This document shows positions 5,867 to 43,452 of a stretch of 64,000 nucleotides of DNA, piece by piece. Each line of letters starts with the position of its first letter. Position 1 is the first letter of the stretch. This DNA is from Dioszegia crocea. Taxonomy: Eukaryota; Basidiomycota; Tremellomycetes; Tremellales; Bulleribasidiaceae. A program made the position numbers and the translations under genes. The notes beneath the pieces are model-generated. The model did not search any database, had not been told where the DNA came from, and worked only from the letters and a program-made list of their open reading frames with translations. Where the stretch lies: positions 1,270,431-1,334,430 of the forward strand of contig BCKK01000007.1 in the NCBI GenBank assembly GCA_001600615.1, read 5' to 3'.

Positions 5867-8265
5867 ATGTTCTCCTCACTTATAAGAGTAGCGACTCGAT
5901 CGGCGTCGATCCAGCTCGAAGAACTGGGTGCGAAGGCTGTGCCGGCGGCGGTAGCCAAAGCTGGCAAAGCGGTAGATCGGACGGCGGGGGCGAAGGTGGA
6001 TGATGAAGTGTTGCCTATCAAGGAGGGCGATAGGATAGAGGGAACGCCTCTGGATGAGGCTAGGACAAGTCCACCGTCTCAACAAAGGTCTAATCCGCCA
6101 ATAGCCGATCTGGCCAGGCAGGCAGTCAGCCCGCCTGCATCTGCTGCTGAGCCTTCGCTGTCGACGCAGAGCACTGTCGTCGACAACCAGTCTATAATAC
6201 GGTCATCGATACCCGCCACAGAACATACTGGAGCCTCTGTGACATCCCCTCCCACCGCCAGTCGCAATGTCGTACCTGAACCCACCCTCTCATCGCCCAC
6301 TCCTGCATCAACAGCGATCCCTCCCGCATCCAGATCGTTACCGCCTAAGATCTCAGCATCGGTGTCATCCGCGCAAAGTGGATCAAATCTCGCTGGCCCA
6401 TCTGTACCCCGATCTCCGGCGTCATTCCGGCCTCGACCAGCCGAAACGGATCCTGGAATGTACGCAGAAAGCGCAGATAAGGACGATGTGAGTCTGAGCC
6501 ATGGCCGTGTTCTCAGCTGATGATAGGCCCCCGTACTCCTCCGAGCGTCCAGAGTTCCTTCATCCAAAATTGGCCGATTTCTGCATTACGGCTGTGAGTT
6601 CCTACCCTTTCATCAAGTATGCCGCTGACATCTAGCCCTCGCAGCGTCTCTCAGCTGGGGAGCTGCGACCGAGACGATCTCACGCTCCGCCGGTGGTGGC
6701 GGTCAATCCGGCAGTAGCGTCTTCATGTCAGATGCCAATGTCCGACGGCTCGTATCGAGCTTGACCAAAATGCGGGGTGCAGCATTGAAGCTGGGGCAAT
6801 TTATGAGTATACAGGGTGAGCCCCTGCAACGGCCTGAGCTGATCACTAGATAACCACATGCTACCGCCTGAGATTGAGAGAGTGTTATCTCAGGTCCAAT
6901 CACATGCCAATTACATGCCAGACTGGCAAATGGAGGTAAGCCCTGTCCGACTCCCAAAACTGACAATAGCGCGTAATGACGGAAGAACTTGGACCTCAGT
7001 GGTCTTCCCTCTTTTCCACATTTGATCGAACACCTATCGCTTCTGCGTCGATCGGACAAGTCCATCGCGCAACTCTACCCACCGGCCAAACTGTCGCTGT
7101 TAAAATCCAATTCCCGGGTATTCGCGATTCCATCACTTCCGACTTGTCATATCTTACACCATTACTTGCCTCATCTTCGATCTTGCCCAAGGGGATGTAT
7201 TTGCAGAACACCATCGCGGTAATGAAGCGAGAATTGGCGGATGAGTGTGATTATACCAAAGAAGCCGAGGCAGGGAGGAAGTTTGCCCTTTTGCTCAAGG
7301 GTGACGACTACTTTGATACACCGCAGATTGTGGAGGAGGCGTGTACGGAACGCGTGTTGACTACTACGTGGATGGAGGGCAAGTCGTTGAGTCGGATAAA
7401 GGGGATGAGCCAGGAGGTCAGAGATAGGGTATGTCGCATTTCCCCGGGCCTGCCTTGTTCCCTCGGGCTCGTCACCCAAGCTGGCCCTCCTCACCTGCGA
7501 TTGTCACAGGTCTTAGACATAGGCTGACCCTCCAGATCGGCACAAACATCCTCCGCCTCTGCCTACAAGAACTATTCCATTTCCGCATAATGCAGACCGA
7601 CCCGAACTGGGGTAATTTCCTCTACAGCCCCACGACCGACCGACTCGGGTTAATCGACTTCGGAGCGAGCAGGTCTTACTCGCGTGAATTCATCGATGGG
7701 TGGCATGCGCTCTTATCAGCCGCGATACGGGGCGATAGGGAACGGATGAAGGTTGAAAGTGAGAATATTGGGTATTTCACCGGGGCAGAGGAAGAGGTGA
7801 GTCGTGTCTGTTCACTGGGCGTTCCGGTTCTGGAGGAGATGAGTCGCGAAGGAAGTTGCGGACTTTGGATCCATGATCTCGTATCCTAGATCGTCAGATC
7901 CGCAACGAGGTCCTTGACTACCCACCCAATCCCGAACTACTAAGACTTCATTCCATCCCCATACCATCGCTCACTTCCAGATCATGATTGATGCCCACCT
8001 CTCATCAATGTCCCTACTCTCCGTCCCATTCGCCCATCAAGGCATATACGACTTCTCCAATCAAACCATAACCGATGATGTTCGGAAATACATCCCCATC
8101 ATGCTTAAACATCGACTCACGCCACCTCCACAAGAGACATACAGTCTGAATCGGAAGTTGTCGGGTGCGTTTTTGATGTGTGCCAAGTTGGGGTCAAGGG
8201 TGGATTGTGCCAAGTTGTGGGAAGAGTGGGCAGGGGGATATCCATATCCTGATCCGAAAGTCTGA
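5867..8265 (+). CDS. COQ8: COQ8/ABC1 atypical kinase of coenzyme Q biosynthesis
   Basis: Mitochondrial ADCK/UbiB-family ATPase that supports assembly of the coenzyme Q synthesis complex on the matrix face of the inner membrane. Seven exons give about 650 residues. The N-terminus (MFSSLIRVATRSAS) looks like a presequence and precedes a roughly 190-residue Ser/Pro/Ala-rich disordered region. The family core follows: SSKIGRFLHYGSLAASLSWGAATE, the KxGQ motif in ALKLGQFMSIQ, the alanine-rich nucleotide loop SASIGQVHRA, VAVKIQFPG, ADECDYTKEAE, the catalytic loop QTDPNWGNFLY and the metal motif LIDFGASR. All introns preserve the frame, and the last is about 180 nt. The start is the only ATG giving a presequence in frame. 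Residues needed for the atypical kinase fold are all present. Confidence 0.95.
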
Positions 8266-8736
8266 GGGGGAGGGTAGATCTTTCACGATGTATGTTGACG
8301 TCTACCGAGTAGATCGTTCTCATGACCTCTCAGACTTGCACTCGGCCATGACGAGGGACCTGGATCCTGGGGGATTGGTGCCGTGACAATTGGCCGTGAC
8401 ATTCGAATCCATACATTGCTCTTTGCCTGTGCGCCAAGCAAGAAGCCCCAAATCACTAATTTACCTAACTACCCTAATGTAATGAATGACAGATGCTATG
8501 CTAATGTAATAACTATGTAGAGAAGGGTTGGGGGGAGATACATAATTGGGCTACTCTACGTGGTCTATTTTACTCTATATACTGATACGCTAGCAGTGGA
8601 AACTGGGTATAGATGCCTATGTAGTGGGTTATACGTGTTGTACATGGTGTAGTCGAGAAGTCGAGAAATGAGAATAGGGTCGTGAGGAGGGTTGAAGAGT
8701 AGTCGAGATTCCGAGATGTTTGGGGATTCGAGGCGT
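8266..8736. other. Convergent intergenic region, no gene seen
   Basis: 471 bp between the stops of COQ8 and KAP104, AT-richer than the flanking genes and with scattered short ORFs that lack introns or family signatures. It probably holds the two 3' UTRs. Confidence 0.6.
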
Positions 8737-11700
8737 CTAGACAGAGTATCTCTCTCGCATTCTCTCTCGAATGACGGGCGGGAAAGAAGAAACCATAGTT
8801 TCCCAATTGGCTCCGAGGTTGTTTCGGAATCCCTGTAGGATCTGGCGTGTAAGCTGATGTCCGCTGTACCTAGACGGCGAAATGGGAAATGCAACTTACA
8901 GATCGGAACATACTGTCCAGCTGTTGAGATGGTTGTTGCCATTTACAAATTGCGTTGCAGAAGTAGTGGAATGCCTGTGGTGTTAGTTTTTGGTCTATAT
9001 GTCTCGGCCCGATCCAACACGATTACGGCCCGACCTCAGCCCAATTCAGTCCAATCTATCCCGTCCACCCCCTTCCAATTGTCCCACACCAGACCAAACC
9101 CCGACTACCCCCACCTAGACCATGACCTCCCCTAATCTGCCCAAGCCCGCCTGCTCAATCCGCCCCCAGCGATCCCAATACACCATCAACCACCCCCAAA
9201 CCCCCTGCCAACCAAACCCAAATCCAGACCCAGCCCAAACTCACACTTTCAATCCCAGCCGGATTCGCCGAAATCATCATACAAAACCCTCTAAACGCTG
9301 AATCCTTCTCATCATTATCCTTAATTTCCCACAGGGCAGTACACCACGCCTGCGCAAATTTAGGCAACTCGGGCGCGACCGTAGCCGGGCAAACCAGCCC
9401 AATCCTTCCAATCGTCACGGCCGCATTTTCACTAAGTGATTTCGGAGATTTAGGGTTGAGGAGGATAGGGATAAGTCGGCCAATAAGGGCAGGGACGAAT
9501 GGTTCGAGTGGTGCGCTATCTTGATGATACTGAAGGGCAATCTCGCCTGCTGCCCATGCCGCATTGTTGGTTACGCTGATACAGTCCGCTTCGGGGTCTG
9601 AAAGGATTTGATCGATTACCGATGGCATAAATTGTGGAATAACCGGTGCGAGGATTTGCCAGCATGAAATTGCCATATCGCCGAGTAGGGCATGTGCAGA
9701 TTGACGAACTGGGGGTTCGGCGTGCTGTATTTAGCGAAGATTTGGGGGAAACTTACGTTAAGACATAGAGCCATAAGGTGAAGTAAGGGTGGTTGGGTTG
9801 ATGCAATCAATTGATGGATCTGATCGCCTAACCCTTGGGTAAGACCTGAGAGAAGGTCCAAAGCAACGACGATAAATGTCCGATCGGGCTCATCGACAGT
9901 ATCGGGATTAGCGTCGTATATTTGATATTGCTGTAGGGAAGTATGGATGATGTTGAGGCATCGCTGGAATACGGGGGCGGTATAGGGAGCAAATGCTACA
10001 CCAGCTGCAATCGAAACGGAGGATAGACACTGGGGTTAGCTATGACCCACAACGGACTTACCTCCAGCAGAGGAACCAAATCCCCATCATCATCCGCCAA
10101 CTTCATCCATCGGTCGATCAGGGGCGGCATGAGAATATCGAGATATGCCGGTCGGCCCAATTCTGAACCGACAGAATCGGCCAATGTGCCTAGGGCATCG
10201 TATAGAATCAAAAGATTCTTCTGTTGATATTTTTGGAACGCAAAGGTGAGGTTGCGCAGGATGGGCTCGAGGAAAGGTGCAAGTTCGACTTCGGCTTCTT
10301 CTTCAAGAGTCGCAAAGGCTGAACAGCCCGCTTCTTGGACTCGCTTGTTACCGTCCAGGACGCGTTTGAGCAGCTAGGATGTCAGCTTAGATTCACCATG
10401 AATTGCAACTCGTCAAGCAATTTGAAACGGCGGGTCTGCGACAGAGGTAAACTTACACCTTCCATAGTGGGGATGAAGAACTTTGTCTTGTCCTCGGCGG
10501 CGGTCTGAACCACCCAGGAAGAGTACCGGCCCAATGTCCAACATGTAATCGACCTAACGAGCGCCTAGGGTTAGCAGGCCCAACCTAAACATACCTTCTT
10601 ATCCCCTAGCGAGTTGATCAACCACGGAACCAGCTGCTGTAGATGCGGTTGCAATCCATCAATACAGCCTGACGTTAGCGAGCCCAAACCAAAACTTACC
10701 CTCTGCAATAGCGCCCAGAGCCAAAATCCCGCTCTCCCTCTGCTCCCATTCCTCATGGAAAAGCCGTTCCTTCAGATGAGGCAACAACAACTCCAACACC
10801 TCTTCTTTGAACGTCACCGCCATCACATCCAAAGCCGCAGCGGAACATTTCCTGATGTTCCACTCGCTCGTGTCTTCCTCGTCATCATCGTAGTCGTCGT
10901 CATCATCGTCATCATCGTCCAACGCCCGATCTGCCGCCTCGCGAGATTGCCCGACTCGGCTGGACGATTGTTCGTTTGATTCGTGCGTGTGGGTTTTCGA
11001 CGAGTAGTTCTTCGGCTTGATATCCTCCTCCTTATCAGGCACAGCCTCGTCCTCCTCATCATCGTCCAGCGTCAACAGGTCGAACTCGGTATACACCATT
11101 CCCTGCAATAGCAAAGGGAGGACGATGTGGAGGTATGGCCGTAGATAATCCCGCATGGTAGGCTCCTCCGCAAATGTCAACCAAAACTCGCACGCCTCCA
11201 GCGCCACAAGCTCGTCCTGCTCCGTCGTGCAGTATGCCATATAGTCGACGACGTTTTTGAGTTCCGGGATGAGTTTGTCCGGCCGGGTGTTGAGGATGAG
11301 AGCCAGAGCGGCACAGACGGCTTTGCGCACGTCTGAAGATTCATCCGAAGCTCGAGCAAAGAGGGATTGGAGGTAAGGGTCGATATTTGCCGCCATGGAT
11401 GGGGATTGAATCGCAGAGAGGGATTGCAAAGACTGAAGGCAGTTGAGGCGGATTTTAGGGGATGAATGGGCGGTATACCGTATAAACTCAGGAACGAGGT
11501 GGTCGAGTAATTTCCGACCCGACACCTCAAAGTCAAGCTTATGAGGACAATCCTCGCAGATCTTTTCAAGCGTGTTGAAGGATCCCTACATCAGCTTGGT
11601 CAACTCTGGAACCTACCTCGGCAAGGTTGATATCCTGCGATCCAATCCCCTGCGTCACCGCATTCAACGCCTCGGGCCATTTACCCACATCTTCACTCGC

Positions 11701-19737: not shown

Positions 19738-19822
19738 GGTTGCTTCGTATAACGGTTAGTACTTCAGATTCTGATGATAAAAACGGGTTCTGGCGACCTG
19801 GGTTCGACTCCCAGAGCGACCT
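19738..19822 (+). tRNA. tRNA-Gln (anticodon CUG) with about 13-nt intron
   Basis: Complete cloverleaf. Acceptor GGTTGCT pairs with AGCGACC (one G-U), followed by discriminator T at 19822. The D arm is GTA...TAC. Anticodon stem TCAGA pairs with TCTGG around loop TTCTGAT, placing CTG at 34-36. An insertion of about 13 nt (TGATAAAAACGGG) follows base 37, the standard nuclear tRNA intron position. The T arm is CTGGG-TTCGACT-CCCAG. A T-rich stretch suited to Pol III termination follows directly. Confidence 0.9.
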
Positions 19823-36575: not shown

Positions 36576-38477
36576 ATGGTCACTACCACCACCCCATCCC
36601 CTTCTTCCCTACCTACCACTCGCTCATCGTCCCCGTTGCCCACTGCTCGATTCTCCACTCCTCCACCTCCACCACCCGCAGGTGCTGTCCCTACCGATTT
36701 CCGCTCATCTCTCTCGGCATGGTGGAACAATACTTCATACAAAGAAGCACGGATCGCCGAAGAACGCCTACTCCGCCGGATGGCTCACTTCCAACCGCCC
36801 CCTCCTCCCGAAGTTGAGAAGGGATGGTTTGGACGAGGCACAACGAAGCCGGCTGCTCCTACCGCAGCGGAAATCAGCGTAGATGCGGCTTACGATGCCG
36901 TTCATCACGAGCCGCCTTCGTCACCTGCTGAAGTGGCGACTGCCAACTCTCGTCAAGGCGAGGAGGTGTCCAAGCCTATCCCCATCGAGGGAACTAAACT
37001 TGTTGCGACACTACGAAACGTCTTCATTTCTTCCCCAAATCCTCTTGCCGCACCCCACCACCCGGCCGATCCGATCGTGCATGAATCAGGATCACCCCCT
37101 GCCTCCGCCGCGTCATCGCAGACTTCTCTGGGCGAAAAGGTCAAGGTAAAGTCGCATGGGCGGCGCAAAGCGGGCAAGATGGAGGATTACATCAACACGC
37201 TGGAGATTAGCAGACCGGAAGATCGGGGTCAAAAGGAGGCTGTTGTTGTTCTACATGGATACGCCGCTGCTATGGGGTGAGTTACAAATATCCCGGGCCT
37301 GTTGGACGATCAACTCACATTCCAGCTTCTTCTTCCGAAACTGGGACGCAATCTCTCAACACTCAGCCGCAACCTCACGCCGGACCTTCTTCCTCGACTG
37401 GCTCGGAATGGGCTTATCATCCCGACCCAACCCTTCTTTGCTTTCATCACCCTCCAACACGCCCATCCCAGCCCGTGTCGCCCGCGCAGAACACTTCTTC
37501 CTATCATCCCTGGAATCATGGCGTGAAGCCGCAGGTATCGAGCGGATGGTCCTTGTCGGTCACTCCCTGGGCGGATATCTCGCTTCGGCATATGCCGTCC
37601 GGTATCCTCATCGGGTATCGGGTTTGATCCTCGTCAGCCCTGCGGGCATCCCACACGGCAAGGAGTATACGCGGTATGAGACTACGGCGGAATTGGAGGT
37701 CAAGAGGGCTAGATCTGGTGGGGCCAAGAAGGTGGATGAGGATACCGTCCAGGGTGGGAATTTGGATGAGGCGGTGAATGCTGCAGAGCAAGAATTGGGA
37801 GTTGGAGAAGGTGAAGGTGGATCGGCAGCAGCCAAGGGTGAAGCAAAGGAATGGGAGAAGAATCAGACACTACTTCGGAAGAACATGATGAAGTGTGAGT
37901 TGGACTCCGTGAGGCTTGAGTATAGCTGATGGATTAGTCTTCGTTTGGGGCTGGGAGAAGGGTCTTTCACCATTTACATTCCTCCGTACGATGGGACCCT
38001 TCGGACCGATGTTCGCAGGCCGATATTCTCTACGGAGATTCGCAGCTCAATCGGACGAAGACGTCCGGGATTTACACGGGTACATCTACAACACGTCCGT
38101 CCTGAAGGGTTCGGGAGAGTTCTGCATTTCGCATATCCTGGCGCCGGGAGCCTATGCGAGGATTCCAATTGTCGATCGGATAGGCGCTTTGAAGGTTCCT
38201 GTGACATTCATGTGTAAGTCTCATTCGGTAATTTGGTCAAGCGGGGGAAATGCTAGCGGATAGCCCAGAGAACAAAGCTGACTCTTCAGATGGCGATAAT
38301 GATTGGATGGACGTAGAAGGCGGACATGCCTCAGCTGTCGAATTGAAGAAGGCGGGCAATGACAAGTGTGCAGTACACGTCGTCAAGAATGCAGGCCACC
38401 ACGTCTATCTCGATAACCCCGAGGATACAAATCGGATCATTGGCGAGGCGATCCGGGCGATTCCAAAGTCTGTTTGA
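36576..38477 (+). CDS. Alpha/beta hydrolase of the ABHD4/ABHD5-CLD1 family
   Basis: Lipid hydrolase/acyltransferase related to yeast Cld1 (cardiolipin deacylase) and Ict1 and to animal ABHD4/5. Four exons, about 580 residues. The N-terminal 200 residues are Pro/Ser/Thr-rich with a conserved-looking WWNNTSYKEARIAEERLLRRM segment. The hydrolase fold has an oxyanion strand EAVVVLHGYAAAMGFFFRNW (split by an intron), DWLGMGLSSRP, nucleophile elbow VLVGHSLGGYLASAYAVRYP, the family's LILVSPAGIP, acid region YGDNDWMD and histidine NAGHHVYLDNPE, which also forms the H-x4-D acyltransferase motif of this family. A roughly 50-residue Glu/Gly/Ala insert precedes the lid. The start is ATG in AAAATGG; the upstream open frame is the leader. 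Substrate (cardiolipin versus lysophospholipid) is not decidable. Confidence 0.9.
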
Positions 38478-38650: not shown

Positions 38651-41336
38651 TCACACCTGATGCTGGTACAGACACTGAAACTGGACATCTCCCTTCCCCA
38701 AACCCAACTCCACGTTCTCAACACCTACAAACCCCTGCATCCCCATCTGTACCCCCTTCACACTTTCCCCCGAACTCCTTCCGCTCTTGGTGGGCGTAAT
38801 CGGCATAGCGCCATCCTCAACTGACGCCTCAGTCAAAGAGGAAGATAATCCACTTCCGACCGAATCTACACTCCCCTTCCTCTCTCCACAAGCCTCAACA
38901 GGATATAAATCCACCCTGGTCCCTTCCGAACTTTCCATACTATCCGGCGTATCCATTCCCACCCATCCCCATTCCTCCCCTCTCGTCCATCCTGGCGCAT
39001 CATCAAAGCTTGGTAAATCCTCTTCATCCGATCCTGACGCTAATGCCCGCGCATACCGCGCTGGAGTCGTTGTCGATTTGTATTTCCGGATAAAGGCTTC
39101 GCGCCGGGTATGATAGCGCTTCGATCGGATCGGGTGGAATGAGTCCAGTAGCATTTGGGAGAGTTCTTCGGTGCGATAGTGGACGAGAGGGGGAAGGGTG
39201 CGATTGGCAGAGGTGTAGAATTGGGATTTGCAAGTGGCGATGCTGGCAAGTGTGGGAATGTCTGAGGTGGAATGGGAACGTGCCCAAGGGGCGCATTGGA
39301 GAGGAGTTGAGAGGGATCCAAGGGTGATGGCTTGAGAGTCGCCGAGGAGATTACGAATCTGCTCCATCATTGCCGATTCGATGTGTCCGGGGGAGGAGTC
39401 ATATGATCCCACTTCAACATCGATAAGGCCCTTCAGGCGTGCCTCAGTCGTGGATATAGGCGTCATATCTCTCAATAGATGAGCAGCGGCCATAGGTCCG
39501 CATCGTTGCGCATAGGAGTATCTGGAAAGTCAGCACTATCCCCACTTTCGGTAGATTGACATACGAGTGGAATTCCGAACCATGCAGGCCCATAGCTCTA
39601 TACGCAGGATTCAACACCACCTCTCTAGCTCCAATGACAATATCGCACGCTGCGGCCAGAGCTACTCCGCCCGCCGCTGCATTACCGCGCAGACACGCCA
39701 TGGTTACTATCCCACGCTCGACCAAGGGTTTCTGAGATTCAAATATGGCCGATCGCTCGGGGTGCGTGTCGTCAAGGAGGAACTCGACGATATCGTCTAT
39801 AGCGTTGATGTTTGCCCATGTCTCGTCGGCCGGGGATGAGGCCGCTTCGATTGTGTTGAGAGCGATCCCGTTCGAGAAGTAGGTACCGCCCATGAGCGCT
39901 ATGAGGCGGATGGGGAGAGATGATGAAGAGGGATCTGCAGCCCATTGAAGAGCACGAAGAAGGAGCTGACAATTTGATGTAGTGAATGCGCCATTACTAC
40001 GGGTTAGCGAAGCAAGTTCGGACAGTAAGATACTTACTAGAAGTTCCAATAGACCAACCGAGCAACTCCACCTTCCTCCTCCACAGTCTTGACGTAGACA
40101 GCCTGCCATTCGCCCCGCCTATACCCAAACCCTTCCTGCTTCCATTCTTGAACACCCTCCAACGCCGCCCCATGCCCGCTCTTCAGGATAGCATCTACCA
40201 TCGGCACCTTTGGATCTAGGGGGTCTTTCAGACTCTTCTTGGGTAAACGCCCATGCGTAATCCAGACTCCAGCCCCGCCCCCAAACCTCTGCTCAGTCTT
40301 GACAAACACCGCTCCGTCCCTCTTTGCCAGAATCGTCCCATTGGGCACAACCGCCAAACTCCCCCATTTCTCATATAACTCCACCGGCACCGTCGCGGGA
40401 TCCTCATGTACACACGCGCCATACGCAAAGAGAGCAGTTCTCGAGTCGGTCGTCAATGGTGGAAGTTGTCCTCCGGGCTGAGAATCCCCAGCTGAAATGA
40501 TCCGATGGACGTCCCTGGCCGTATGATACGCCCAGACCGGCCGACGAGATTTGCTCTGAAGGAGATGTCGATCGTGTACCCGTCCACCGAGGAAGGGCTT
40601 ATTGGCTGTAATGCTGTTGATTCCCCATTCCGCCCGAGGCGTCGCTTTGACGTATGTCGACCGATCTCCATTCCCTACTCGCTCATACACCCTGAATAGC
40701 GCCGTAACGAGGGATAGCATAGCCCCTTGGCTGTGTAGCCCTTGGTATAATTGTGCCTTGGTGAGAGTGCCAATTGGGGGTAAAGGGTATTGCTCCCATG
40801 CCCAGACTGCACCGCCGTCCAACTCTTCATTCGCCTGGAAACAGATTGTTCCCCAGTGAGAGCGTTGAATGGGGTTGAGGGAGTATTGGGGGGATTCGAG
40901 GTGGGATAAGGTATCGGTTGAGGAAGGGGAAAGACCGGTGTCGCCCACAAGGACCCAGTCGAGGGAGGATGGACCAGCATCGCCGGGTGGACCAGGATGG
41001 ATCACAAGTGTCATCCACTGCTTCGTCAGCTCTAAAGCCGAATTGTAGACTCACCCTTGTAAAGACGCTATCGGGGATTCTGGCAGTTAAGAATGGGCAC
41101 AATATGACATCCGGGTCACACTTCTCCGCCGCAGCTACCATCCCTTCCGCCGAGCCTGCTATCTGAACGGCATAGTTCGTCATGCCAAGATGATCAAAGT
41201 ACGCAATGACCTTTTGGACAAACGAGTTGACCGAGGTGCAGAGGATGAGGATGCGCCATTCCTTGAGGCCGACGAGGTGTGCGGGAAGGGAAGGGAAAGG
41301 GCCAAGAGGCGCTGTCGGGTTGGACGGGAGGGACAT
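38651..41336 (-). CDS. hypX: HypX/HoxX homologue: formyl-THF transferase-like plus enoyl-CoA hydratase-like fusion
   Basis: Four exons, about 854 residues. The N-terminal formyltransferase-like domain has ILILCTSVNSFVQKV, CDPDVILCPFLTARIP, then LVIHPGPPGDAGPSSLDWVL and WGTICFQANEELDGGAVWAWEQYPL. The linker holds ARDVHRIISAADSQPGG-type sequence (here SAGDSQPGG), FAYGACVHED, GTILAKRDGAVFVKT and GVWITHG. The C-terminal crotonase-like domain has YWNFYNGAFTTSNCQ, LIALMGGTYFSNGIALNTIEAASSPADETWANINAIDD, CLRGNAAAGGVALAAACD and VVLNPAYRAMGLHGSEFHSYSY. This is the exact domain order of bacterial HypX. That enzyme takes the formyl group from N10-formyl-THF to CoA and releases CO for the Fe site of NiFe hydrogenase. 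The C-terminal YRTEELSQMLLDSF...RYHTRREAFIRK is also HypX-like, then about 115 extra Ser/Glu-rich residues follow. The fungal role is unknown. Confidence 0.93.
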
Positions 41337-42114: not shown

Positions 42115-42715
42115 TTACAGAACTGGCCTGGCATCCTTCACGCCACCACACGTCGCCCCCGTCCCATCCTCGTAGACACAGAACAGCTTCACACCGCTGT
42201 GTGTGTCGCCATCCTCGCACGGGAAGAGAAAGTCTTCCTTATTCCGGAGTTGAAACTCCATGTTGCCTTTGAAGTCTAGATTCATGACGCCCATGAATCG
42301 GCACTATTTCATCAGCGCCGAAATTCAATTTGTATACGTTAGACTGTGAGCTCGGTAGATCAGTAAAACTCACGGTTGGGCAATGAGGGAACGTTGGTGC
42401 TACCCAATTGAAATTATTGTACGACCTCCAGTCGCGGTCCTGCTCCTCAGGAGTCATCTTCGGGTTGACTACGTAAGGAGGTCGTTTGCCGTAGCTGTCC
42501 CAGCAAAACGAAAAAGCATCGATGCCTTTCGTATCGACCGTGCCGTTTTTGAAGGTATCGAAAACCAGCTGGTTGTCCTTTCCGATCTTCAACTTGGGCT
42601 GCTCGTTGATTCTGACATCGCTGCCGTCGATAATGACCTGCCTTGACTTGGCCAGCGTGGGTAGGATTGAGCAGAGGACGACCAGCGCCGTGGGAAGGAC
42701 AGAGAGGAACAACAT
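42115..42715 (-). CDS. Secreted six-cysteine protein, unknown function
   Basis: Two exons, about 177 residues. It starts with a clear signal peptide (MLFLSVLPTALVVLCSILPTLAKS) and continues into a mature protein of about 150 residues: IDGSDVRINEQPKLKIGKDNQLVFDTF, FCWDSYGKRPPYVV, PEEQDRDWRSYNNFNW. A 70-nt intron precedes CRFMGVMNLDFKGNMEFQLRN, FPCEDGDTHSGVKLFCVYEDG and ATCGGVKDARPVL. Six cysteines in the mature part imply up to three disulfides, and no membrane span or GPI signal is seen. A TATATAAG box on the minus strand (42857-42864) lies about 140 bp upstream, and the gene is flanked by long gene-poor DNA. A secreted or wall-associated protein is likely; there is no recognised family. Confidence 0.8.
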
Positions 42716-43452
42716 TGTGAGTTGGGGTGCGGTGGCGAGTGGTACGTTCGGCTAGCCGAGGTTGCTGTAGTGTGTGTCTGATAGGGTGTCGGGTCTTCTG
42801 GCTTCGTTTCGAGGCTGCTTGATGTATGACAAGACTCAGAGCGAGGATGTGCTCGCCTTATATAGGCACGGCAGGACGAGCACGGGCAAATGTGTACCCA
42901 CTACTCCTTTGGTCTCGCCCCTCGATCCCCGTCCAGCCCGTACATCTGTAAAGGAAGCCAACTGATCTCTCCTGACCCCAGGTCAGCCAAGGTGATGTAT
43001 GAAGGGGTTCAGTAGGTGTAACATTACGAGACGTCAGTGCGATGTCTGCTGGGCGGTCTGTAGGTCTCCAGATCTCGCCATGGCATTTGCCTAAGAAGAG
43101 GATCGGATTTATGCTAATTGACTGATGCGTCGTTATATCGTCAGATGGCCAAAGCGGAACATGGTACGTATATTATCATGGCCAAAAGAGAGACAATTCA
43201 CAGGTTGCCGGCTGTCGGGGTTCTCATCAGATGCAAGTGCTGATGTTATTCCCAGCGTCCACCGATTGTCCAGACTGCTCGCTATGTACTTAACACACAG
43301 GCAAACTCTTCAATCGGGATAACGATCACGGTATGTCCGGGACTTTGCCTCCCCTATATGTAACCGGAAGGGGAGGGTGTCATTGCCTCTCTTCGCAGAT
43401 GTGTGTACAGTGATGAACATCGAGTCTGCTGGGCATGGTGTGATGAGGTGTG

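Follow-up and report, generated by a model that had tools for sequence, protein, structure and literature searches.

A HypX-type gene in Dioszegia crocea

A 64,000-nucleotide stretch of the genome of the yeast-like tremellomycete Dioszegia crocea (contig BCKK01000007.1, positions 1,270,431 to 1,334,430; hereafter the window, in whose coordinates positions are given) carries on its minus strand a complete gene for a relative of HypX, an enzyme so far studied as the carbon monoxide (CO) supplier of [NiFe]-hydrogenase. Splicing of 41336-41055, 41017-40038, 39996-39565 and 39521-38651 yields a single frame of 854 amino acids from ATG to stop, which makes the interval 38651-41336, proposed in a preliminary description of this DNA, exact. 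The motifs cited there are present in the spliced protein, and the three introns, described as normal and spliceosomal, measure 37, 41 and 43 nt and have standard donors as well as AG acceptors; CTGAC or CTAAC, assigned as branch sites by eye, lies inside each. The GC content of the coding sequence is 0.55 versus 0.527 for the window. The gene is single-copy, as a relative's protein matches one locus only in the 20.57-Mb assembly (17 contigs), the genome searched in this work. The gene and its two halves are laid out as follows, all on the minus strand.

41055..41336, minus strand: exon 1, residues 1-94 (spliced translation)
41018..41054, minus strand: intron 1, 37 nt, GTGAGT...CTGAC...AG (sequence)
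40038..41017, minus strand: exon 2, residues 95-421, last codon split (spliced translation)
39997..40037, minus strand: intron 2, 41 nt, GTAAGT...CTAAC...AG (sequence)
39565..39996, minus strand: exon 3, residues 421-565, codons split at both ends (spliced translation)
39522..39564, minus strand: intron 3, 43 nt, GTATGT...CTGAC...AG (sequence)
38651..39521, minus strand: exon 4 including the stop codon, residues 565-854 (spliced translation)
40220..41258, minus strand: N-terminal formyltransferase-like half, about residues 27-360, spanning intron 1 (PDB alignment to Aquifex HypX; approximate bounds)
39164..40075, minus strand: crotonase-like half, about residues 409-684, spanning introns 2 and 3 (Pfam and PDB alignment; approximate bounds)

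A phmmer comparison with PDB sequences matched Aquifex HypX (6j1f and 6j0p) at E-values of 3.3e-60 and 3.5e-60 over two stretches, residues 27-118 and 148-626, so that both the formyltransferase-like half and the crotonase-like half fused to it over the full length are recognizable in sequence. Pfam detects the crotonase half only (PF00378), and seven NCBIfam crotonase models match the protein, every one under its cut-off. The fold comparison was made on the predicted model of a relative, P0054, rather than on the window protein itself; its template modelling (TM) score by target was 0.91 for HypX and 0.30-0.79 for the listed non-HypX rows. The hydrolase domain of 10-formyl-tetrahydrofolate (10-formyl-THF) dehydrogenase, ArnA, Met-tRNA formyltransferase and the crotonases each resemble one half, over single-domain ranges only. 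By its architecture and its residues, judged from sequence, the window protein thus belongs to the HypX family, complete in both halves as had been claimed, and nothing in these comparisons placed it in an unrelated formyltransferase/crotonase fusion family.

Proposed catalytic residues are invariant

Residue roles were taken from the crystal-structure paper on Aquifex HypX (PMC6802093) and followed through a 67-row alignment of 29 fungal proteins, the window protein among them, 11 bacterial ones without Hyp genes found nearby, and 27 other bacterial ones. The last group includes P0121, P0137 and L045, none shown to have adjacent Hyp genes; L045 has no Hyp genes in its 9.8-kb flank and a hydrogenase gene on the same contig. 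All five proposed catalytic residues are kept in 67 of 67 rows and belong to 28 positions invariant throughout. They comprise the formyl-transfer triad His74/Asp80/Asp109 (H101/D107/D161 in the window protein) and Tyr416/Glu426, which lie near the thiol of coenzyme A (CoA) in Aquifex (Y553/E562). The comparison with the Aquifex active site, suggested in advance as a check, therefore revealed no loss of these residues. The CoA 3′-phosphate anchors S194, Q195 and N306 are likewise retained in all 29 fungal rows; other CoA contacts are altered in the window protein (R9 to Ser, R131 to Gln, R542 to Lys).

40979..40999, minus strand: H101 to D107, corresponding to Aquifex H74 and D80 of the proposed formyl-transfer triad (alignment)
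40817..40819, minus strand: D161, corresponding to Aquifex D109, proposed formyl-transfer base (alignment)
40478..40483, minus strand: S273-Q274, corresponding to Aquifex S194-Q195, CoA 3′-phosphate anchors (alignment)
39993..39995, minus strand: N422, corresponding to Aquifex N306, CoA 3′-phosphate anchor (alignment)
39573..39602, minus strand: Y553 to E562, corresponding to Aquifex Y416 and E426, proposed formyl-CoA decarbonylation residues; W428 is His here (alignment)

The likeness to HypX/HoxX of Aquifex aeolicus (6J0P) and Cupriavidus necator accordingly takes in the two-domain layout, the fold of the relative, the formyl-transfer triad, the decarbonylation Tyr/Glu pair and the CoA 3′-phosphate anchors.

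No detectable hydrogenase in the D. crocea genome

The large subunit of NiFe-hydrogenase (PF00374) has no match in the D. crocea genome searched exon by exon in six frames, and HypD (PF01924) is likewise undetected; among 14 control genomes, the first model matched in 5 and the second in 4. This result agrees with the lack of NiFe hydrogenases in fungi asserted in the preliminary description, and it sets D. crocea apart from the [NiFe]-hydrogenase bacteria that carry HypX/HoxX. With neither protein detectable, the natural reading is that the enzyme serves some purpose other than hydrogenase maturation, and we do not class the window protein with the hydrogenase maturation factors: the D. crocea HypX-like protein is not one. 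The further statement that it ‘must do something else’ is sound to this extent, while the CO or formyl-CoA chemistry proposed along with it stays conditional.

A fungus-specific Cys tag at the end of a variable tail

In comparison with HypX/HoxX of [NiFe]-hydrogenase bacteria, the fungal C-terminus is longer and bears a linker with a Cys tag.

39083..39163, minus strand: conserved tail helix, residues 685-711 (alignment; a helix is predicted at the matching place in relatives)
38681..39082, minus strand: variable Gly/Ser/Glu-rich linker, residues 712-845 (sequence; disorder by analogy with P0001)
38666..38680, minus strand: fungus-specific C-terminal Cys tag FQCLY, residues 846-850 (motif patterns)

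An extra Ser/Glu-rich tail of 115 residues had been noted before; the tail is real, but it extends for 143 residues past the last conserved helix (residue 711), is also abundant in Gly (Gly, Ser and Glu being the commonest of the last 154 residues) and ends in a conserved tag. The bacterial copies whose sequences were read stop shortly past a helix with an R-x-x-F-x-x-K pattern. Of the 120 proteins in a first set, 25 hold the pattern and have a median tail of 22 residues beyond it; in a second set, where 119 of 120 hold it, the median is 38 and the maximum 109.

A strict Cys pattern occurs within the last 70 residues of 101 out of 121 fungal rows (120 best hits and the window protein), while shuffled fungal tails gave a mean of 0.6 and a maximum of 5, and none of the 240 bacterial proteins tested carries it. 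After the helix, a looser pattern was found in 112 of the 118 rows with a recognized helix (shuffled mean 6.5, maximum 14); the remaining three of the 121 have a Cys motif at the end by eye, bringing the count to about 115 of 121. The six rows without a motif are P0009 and P0041 (marked partial), P0120 (short), and P0022, P0044 and P0095, whose unlike C-termini could be gene-prediction errors. Although the distance from helix to motif varies from 65 to 373 residues, the Cys is at least 90% conserved in two alignments (C696 in P0054, C1028 in P0001). In the P0054 model the mean predicted local distance difference test score (pLDDT) is 71 in the tag block, compared with 57 before and 37 after it; in the P0001 model residues 804-1007 have a pLDDT below 50, tag blocks 1011-1020 and 1021-1030 reach 77 and 67, and the next block falls to 47. 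That the tag scores above its flanks in both models suggests that it rests on some surface, the folded body being the simplest candidate, where it would have a putative docking site and role. The Cys tag on a variable linker is apparently new.

Fungal distribution and phylogeny

A protein database search gave 1875 matches at E <= 0.001, the best 120 of which were examined, so the fungal spread described here is a lower bound. Many of these 120 rows are metagenome proteins, and every row with a named organism is fungal. The names cover Tremellomycetes, Ceratobasidiaceae/Rhizoctonia, Tilletia, Pseudozyma and Thecaphora (smut-type fungi among them), as well as numerous Pezizomycotina such as Orbilia, Venturia, Verticillium and Fulvia. 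The closest relative among the matches listed is the tremellomycete Kockovaella imperatae (59% identity), followed by Kwoniella and Cryptococcus. A HypX homologue in a fungus is therefore real, yet less singular than the preliminary description implied, as the gene occurs in many fungi, some of whose copies are already listed in UniRef as ‘Hydrogenase maturation factor HoxX’. Proteins automatically named in this way or as ‘ClpP/crotonase’ belong to the same family, the names coming from databases only. Among the open-licence papers listed, judged by title and the opening of the abstract, no study of a fungal HypX was found. A passage of one article (PMC4374905) places a ‘hypX’ in a tyrosine-catabolism cluster and contains nothing linking that name to the present gene; in another (PMC5491491), HoxX occurs in the reference list only.

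Fungal rows are monophyletic in two trees, with 29 rows and support of 100 in the SH-like approximate likelihood ratio test (SH-aLRT) in the first and with 22 rows and support of 100/100 in the second. The fungal clade divides into Pezizomycotina and Basidiomycota, and every bacterial row lies beyond a long branch from it. The first tree excluded L013-L017 (L013 has no long open frame; the rest are partial or unused) and the near-copies L004, L005, L012, L041-L043 and L054-L056. For the second, 14 more rows were dropped (the Sulfurimonas row L027, which formed a long branch, and P0031, P0030, L010, L024, L009, L053, P0024, P0111, P0065, P0048, P0118, L044 and L040) and four were added. The topology fits a single ancient acquisition, which would date from the common ancestor of the sampled groups or earlier and would have been followed by vertical descent. 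Both trees are unrooted and hence give neither donor nor direction of transfer; of the ancient bacterial transfer suggested earlier, the separation of the sampled fungi, as one clade, from the sampled bacteria stands, and the direction does not follow from it.

Bacterial HypX genes without detectable hydrogenase

Bacterial loci were drawn from a contig scan with two narrow patterns (15 loci), from 50 plasmid records (15 regions read) and from 398 Pseudomonadota genomes (including centre G004), to which the hydrogenase census was restricted. A HypX-grade match (E 1.9e-42 or better) is present in 22 of the 398 genomes, the 130 other matching genomes reaching 4e-10 or worse. The large subunit was detected in 18 of these 22 and not found (PF00374) in G383, G134, G314 and G290, assemblies of unstated completeness; because the last three stand together in the tree, the four count as two lineages. 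When Hyp proteins were compared with the HypX loci by tblastn, none was found near HypX in these four, in Acaryochloris, Nonomuraea, one Embleya, two Nocardia plasmids, Mycetohabitans or G191, and Hyp genes were likewise not found in the wider flanks of G191, G383, G134, G314 and G290. The hydrogenases of G191 lie about 0.23 Mb from HypX, and the Embleya record has one about 2.4 Mb off. No large subunit was found in records W01, W05, W06 and W07, which are plasmids and not whole genomes. The neighbourhoods of hydrogenase-distant bacterial HypX revealed no common gene or theme.

Hydrogenase-free HypX is thus not confined to fungi. The bacterial examples (the four genomes and the Acaryochloris, Nocardia and Mycetohabitans plasmids) resemble the fungal proteins in keeping the five catalytic residues and in having flanks without Hyp genes found, the four genomes also in having no PF00374 match. 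Unlike the fungal proteins, they do not form one clade, nor do they group with fungi; the Cys tag is absent from the 240 bacterial proteins tested, a sample that is not identical with the hydrogenase-distant set.

Several of these loci have distinctive surroundings. On plasmid pBRH01 of Mycetohabitans rhizoxinica, HypX (L028, 3001-4755) has genes for an acyltransferase, acyl carrier protein and acyl-CoA dehydrogenase as its neighbours; no Hyp gene was found in the vicinity, and the plasmid has no hydrogenase large subunit. Other Mycetohabitans strains are recorded from Rhizopus. In the closely related L060 (G314) and L061 (G290), phenazine genes lie roughly 2-5 kb from HypX, and both loci contain PHZA_PHZB together with class-II DAHP synthase; isochorismatase and chorismate-binding/GATase proteins are also near HypX in L060, the locus scanned for them. 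The best-scoring bacterial HypX against the fungal query (42% identity), L057 of G191 (7911-9704), is flanked by two AraC-type regulators and lies near an AmoC/PmoC gene; its named relatives include Methylocystis and Methylocella. Finally, one Nocardia strain has two different HypX genes (L024 and L025) on two plasmids, neither with a large subunit.

Metabolic setting and neighbouring genes

The D. crocea genome contains an FTHFS-domain gene and two PF00551 loci, a PurN-type GAR transformylase and an exon of an fmt-type Met-tRNA formyltransferase. The exon-by-exon search with PF00551, a model that misses the HypX-like gene itself and could therefore miss a divergent hydrolase too, turned up no further 10-formyl-THF hydrolase or dehydrogenase. 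There is a haem oxygenase match by Pfam, the same frame having no NCBIfam match, and one gene for a CoA-transferase of family III (four neighbouring pieces). The oxalyl-CoA decarboxylase model found one locus, at 127 bits against a cut-off of 739, whose best NCBIfam match is acetolactate synthase; no formyl-CoA-forming lyase of the oxalyl-CoA decarboxylase superfamily was seen in the genome.

Within the window, a convergent neighbour on the plus strand (37150-38477) encodes an alpha/beta hydrolase (PF00561, E 1.4e-15, within 37150-37926); open frames at 37913-38260 and 38232-38474 on the same strand, for which Pfam gives no match, may be further exons of it. Upstream of the HypX-like gene, an open frame at 42242-42751 (minus strand) has an internal Met followed by a signal-peptide-like stretch and no Pfam match. 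An Rfam tRNA match (45.5 bits, 85 bases) at 19738-19822 on the plus strand is unconfirmed by ARAGORN in bacterial mode, perhaps owing to an intron.

Proposed function

We consider it about evenly balanced whether the protein acts in the cytosol both as a 10-formyl-THF:CoA formyltransferase and as a formyl-CoA decarbonylase, freeing CO and THF without being tied to hydrogenase. The N-terminal half would bind 10-formyl-THF and hand its formyl group to a CoA lodged in the cavity that separates the two halves. The arm of this CoA would then move into the crotonase-like half, where Tyr553 and Glu562 would split formyl-CoA into CO and CoA, while free THF exits. With no [NiFe] cluster to supply, the enzyme could act as an overflow valve of one-carbon metabolism, regenerating free THF and discharging one carbon as CO, which might be sensed by haem proteins. 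The Cys tag on its disordered linker would probably serve as a latch docking back on the folded body or as a handle for a partner protein. The simplest role would be that of a cytosolic valve turning surplus 10-formyl-THF into THF and CO, with CO as a possible signal. A fuller picture, which we offer tentatively and hold to be somewhat doubtful, is that Dikarya may have a dedicated haem-independent CO synthase fed from the folate pool: HypX, once released from its hydrogenase duties, would have turned into a one-carbon overflow valve or a source of CO signal, gated by the tethered C-terminal Cys latch.

Several points weigh against CO release. Fungal rows differ from the HypX/HoxX of [NiFe]-hydrogenase bacteria in W428 (to His, 29 of 29), F396 (to Ala, 29 of 29) and R448 (to Met, 27 of 29), positions at which, of the 27 other bacterial rows, 26, 23 and 23, respectively, keep the Aquifex residue; as these changes lie close in sequence to the decarbonylation residues, the second half-reaction may follow a different chemistry. 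At Aquifex R131, which contacts the CoA diphosphate, 11 of 29 fungal rows have Gln, the window protein among them; the 5′-diphosphate contacts of CoA are reported as not crucial (PMC6802093). Given the haem oxygenase match, the fungus would not need a HypX-like enzyme for CO. Moreover, CO is toxic to respiration and an odd waste product.

The same substitutions bear on an unlikely but serious rival, in which the first half-reaction is kept and water attacks formyl-CoA at the altered second site, making the protein a formyl-CoA hydrolase and, in net effect, a 10-formyl-THF hydrolase yielding formate and THF. It draws on the uniform W428H and F396A changes, the former two residues past Glu426 in sequence, and on the fact that no other hydrolase-type PF00551 protein was seen; THF recycling alone could also explain the wide spread. 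However, Y416 and E426, the proposed decarbonylation residues, are needed in R. eutropha and invariant in the 29 fungal rows, and the same His occurs in 3 of the 11 hydrogenase-distant bacterial rows, so W428H may be mere drift.

It is improbable that the protein works mainly on formyl-CoA in the service of another pathway, either feeding formyl-CoA derived from oxalate or from the alpha-oxidation of fatty acids into the folate pool, or passing it to an acceptor enzyme bound via the tag: the CoA-transferase gene and the resemblance of the conserved tag to a docking element would suit such a role, but a sub-cut-off locus closer to acetolactate synthase and the fact that no formyl-CoA-forming lyase of the oxalyl-CoA decarboxylase superfamily was seen speak against it. 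Very improbable, in our view, is a regulatory or inactive relative that retains folate and CoA binding for sensing and has lost catalysis; the long low-confidence tail with its short conserved tag and the altered second-shell residues would agree with it, yet the five proposed catalytic residues are invariant in all 29 rows across Basidiomycota and Pezizomycotina. Bacterial contamination or recent transfer, brought to mind by the bacterial origin of the studied HypX genes, is scarcely credible in view of the three spliceosomal introns, the GC content, the single copy inside the assembly, the closeness to Kockovaella among the matches listed and the division of the fungal subtree into Pezizomycotina and Basidiomycota.

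Implications for the HypX family

To return to the proposed CO release, the active sites are kept in all sampled fungal copies, and both D. crocea and some bacteria that retain HypX have no detectable hydrogenase; this implies another biological use of folate-derived CO or formyl-CoA chemistry. The fungal form, hydrogenase-free in D. crocea, combines a tethered Cys tag with changed residues around the second site and represents a new variation on HypX. For fungal proteins, the automatically assigned name ‘hydrogenase maturation factor’ may be misleading. An intact HypX relative in a yeast-like fungus without detectable hydrogenase, shared by many fungi, points to an unstudied second use of the HypX enzyme.
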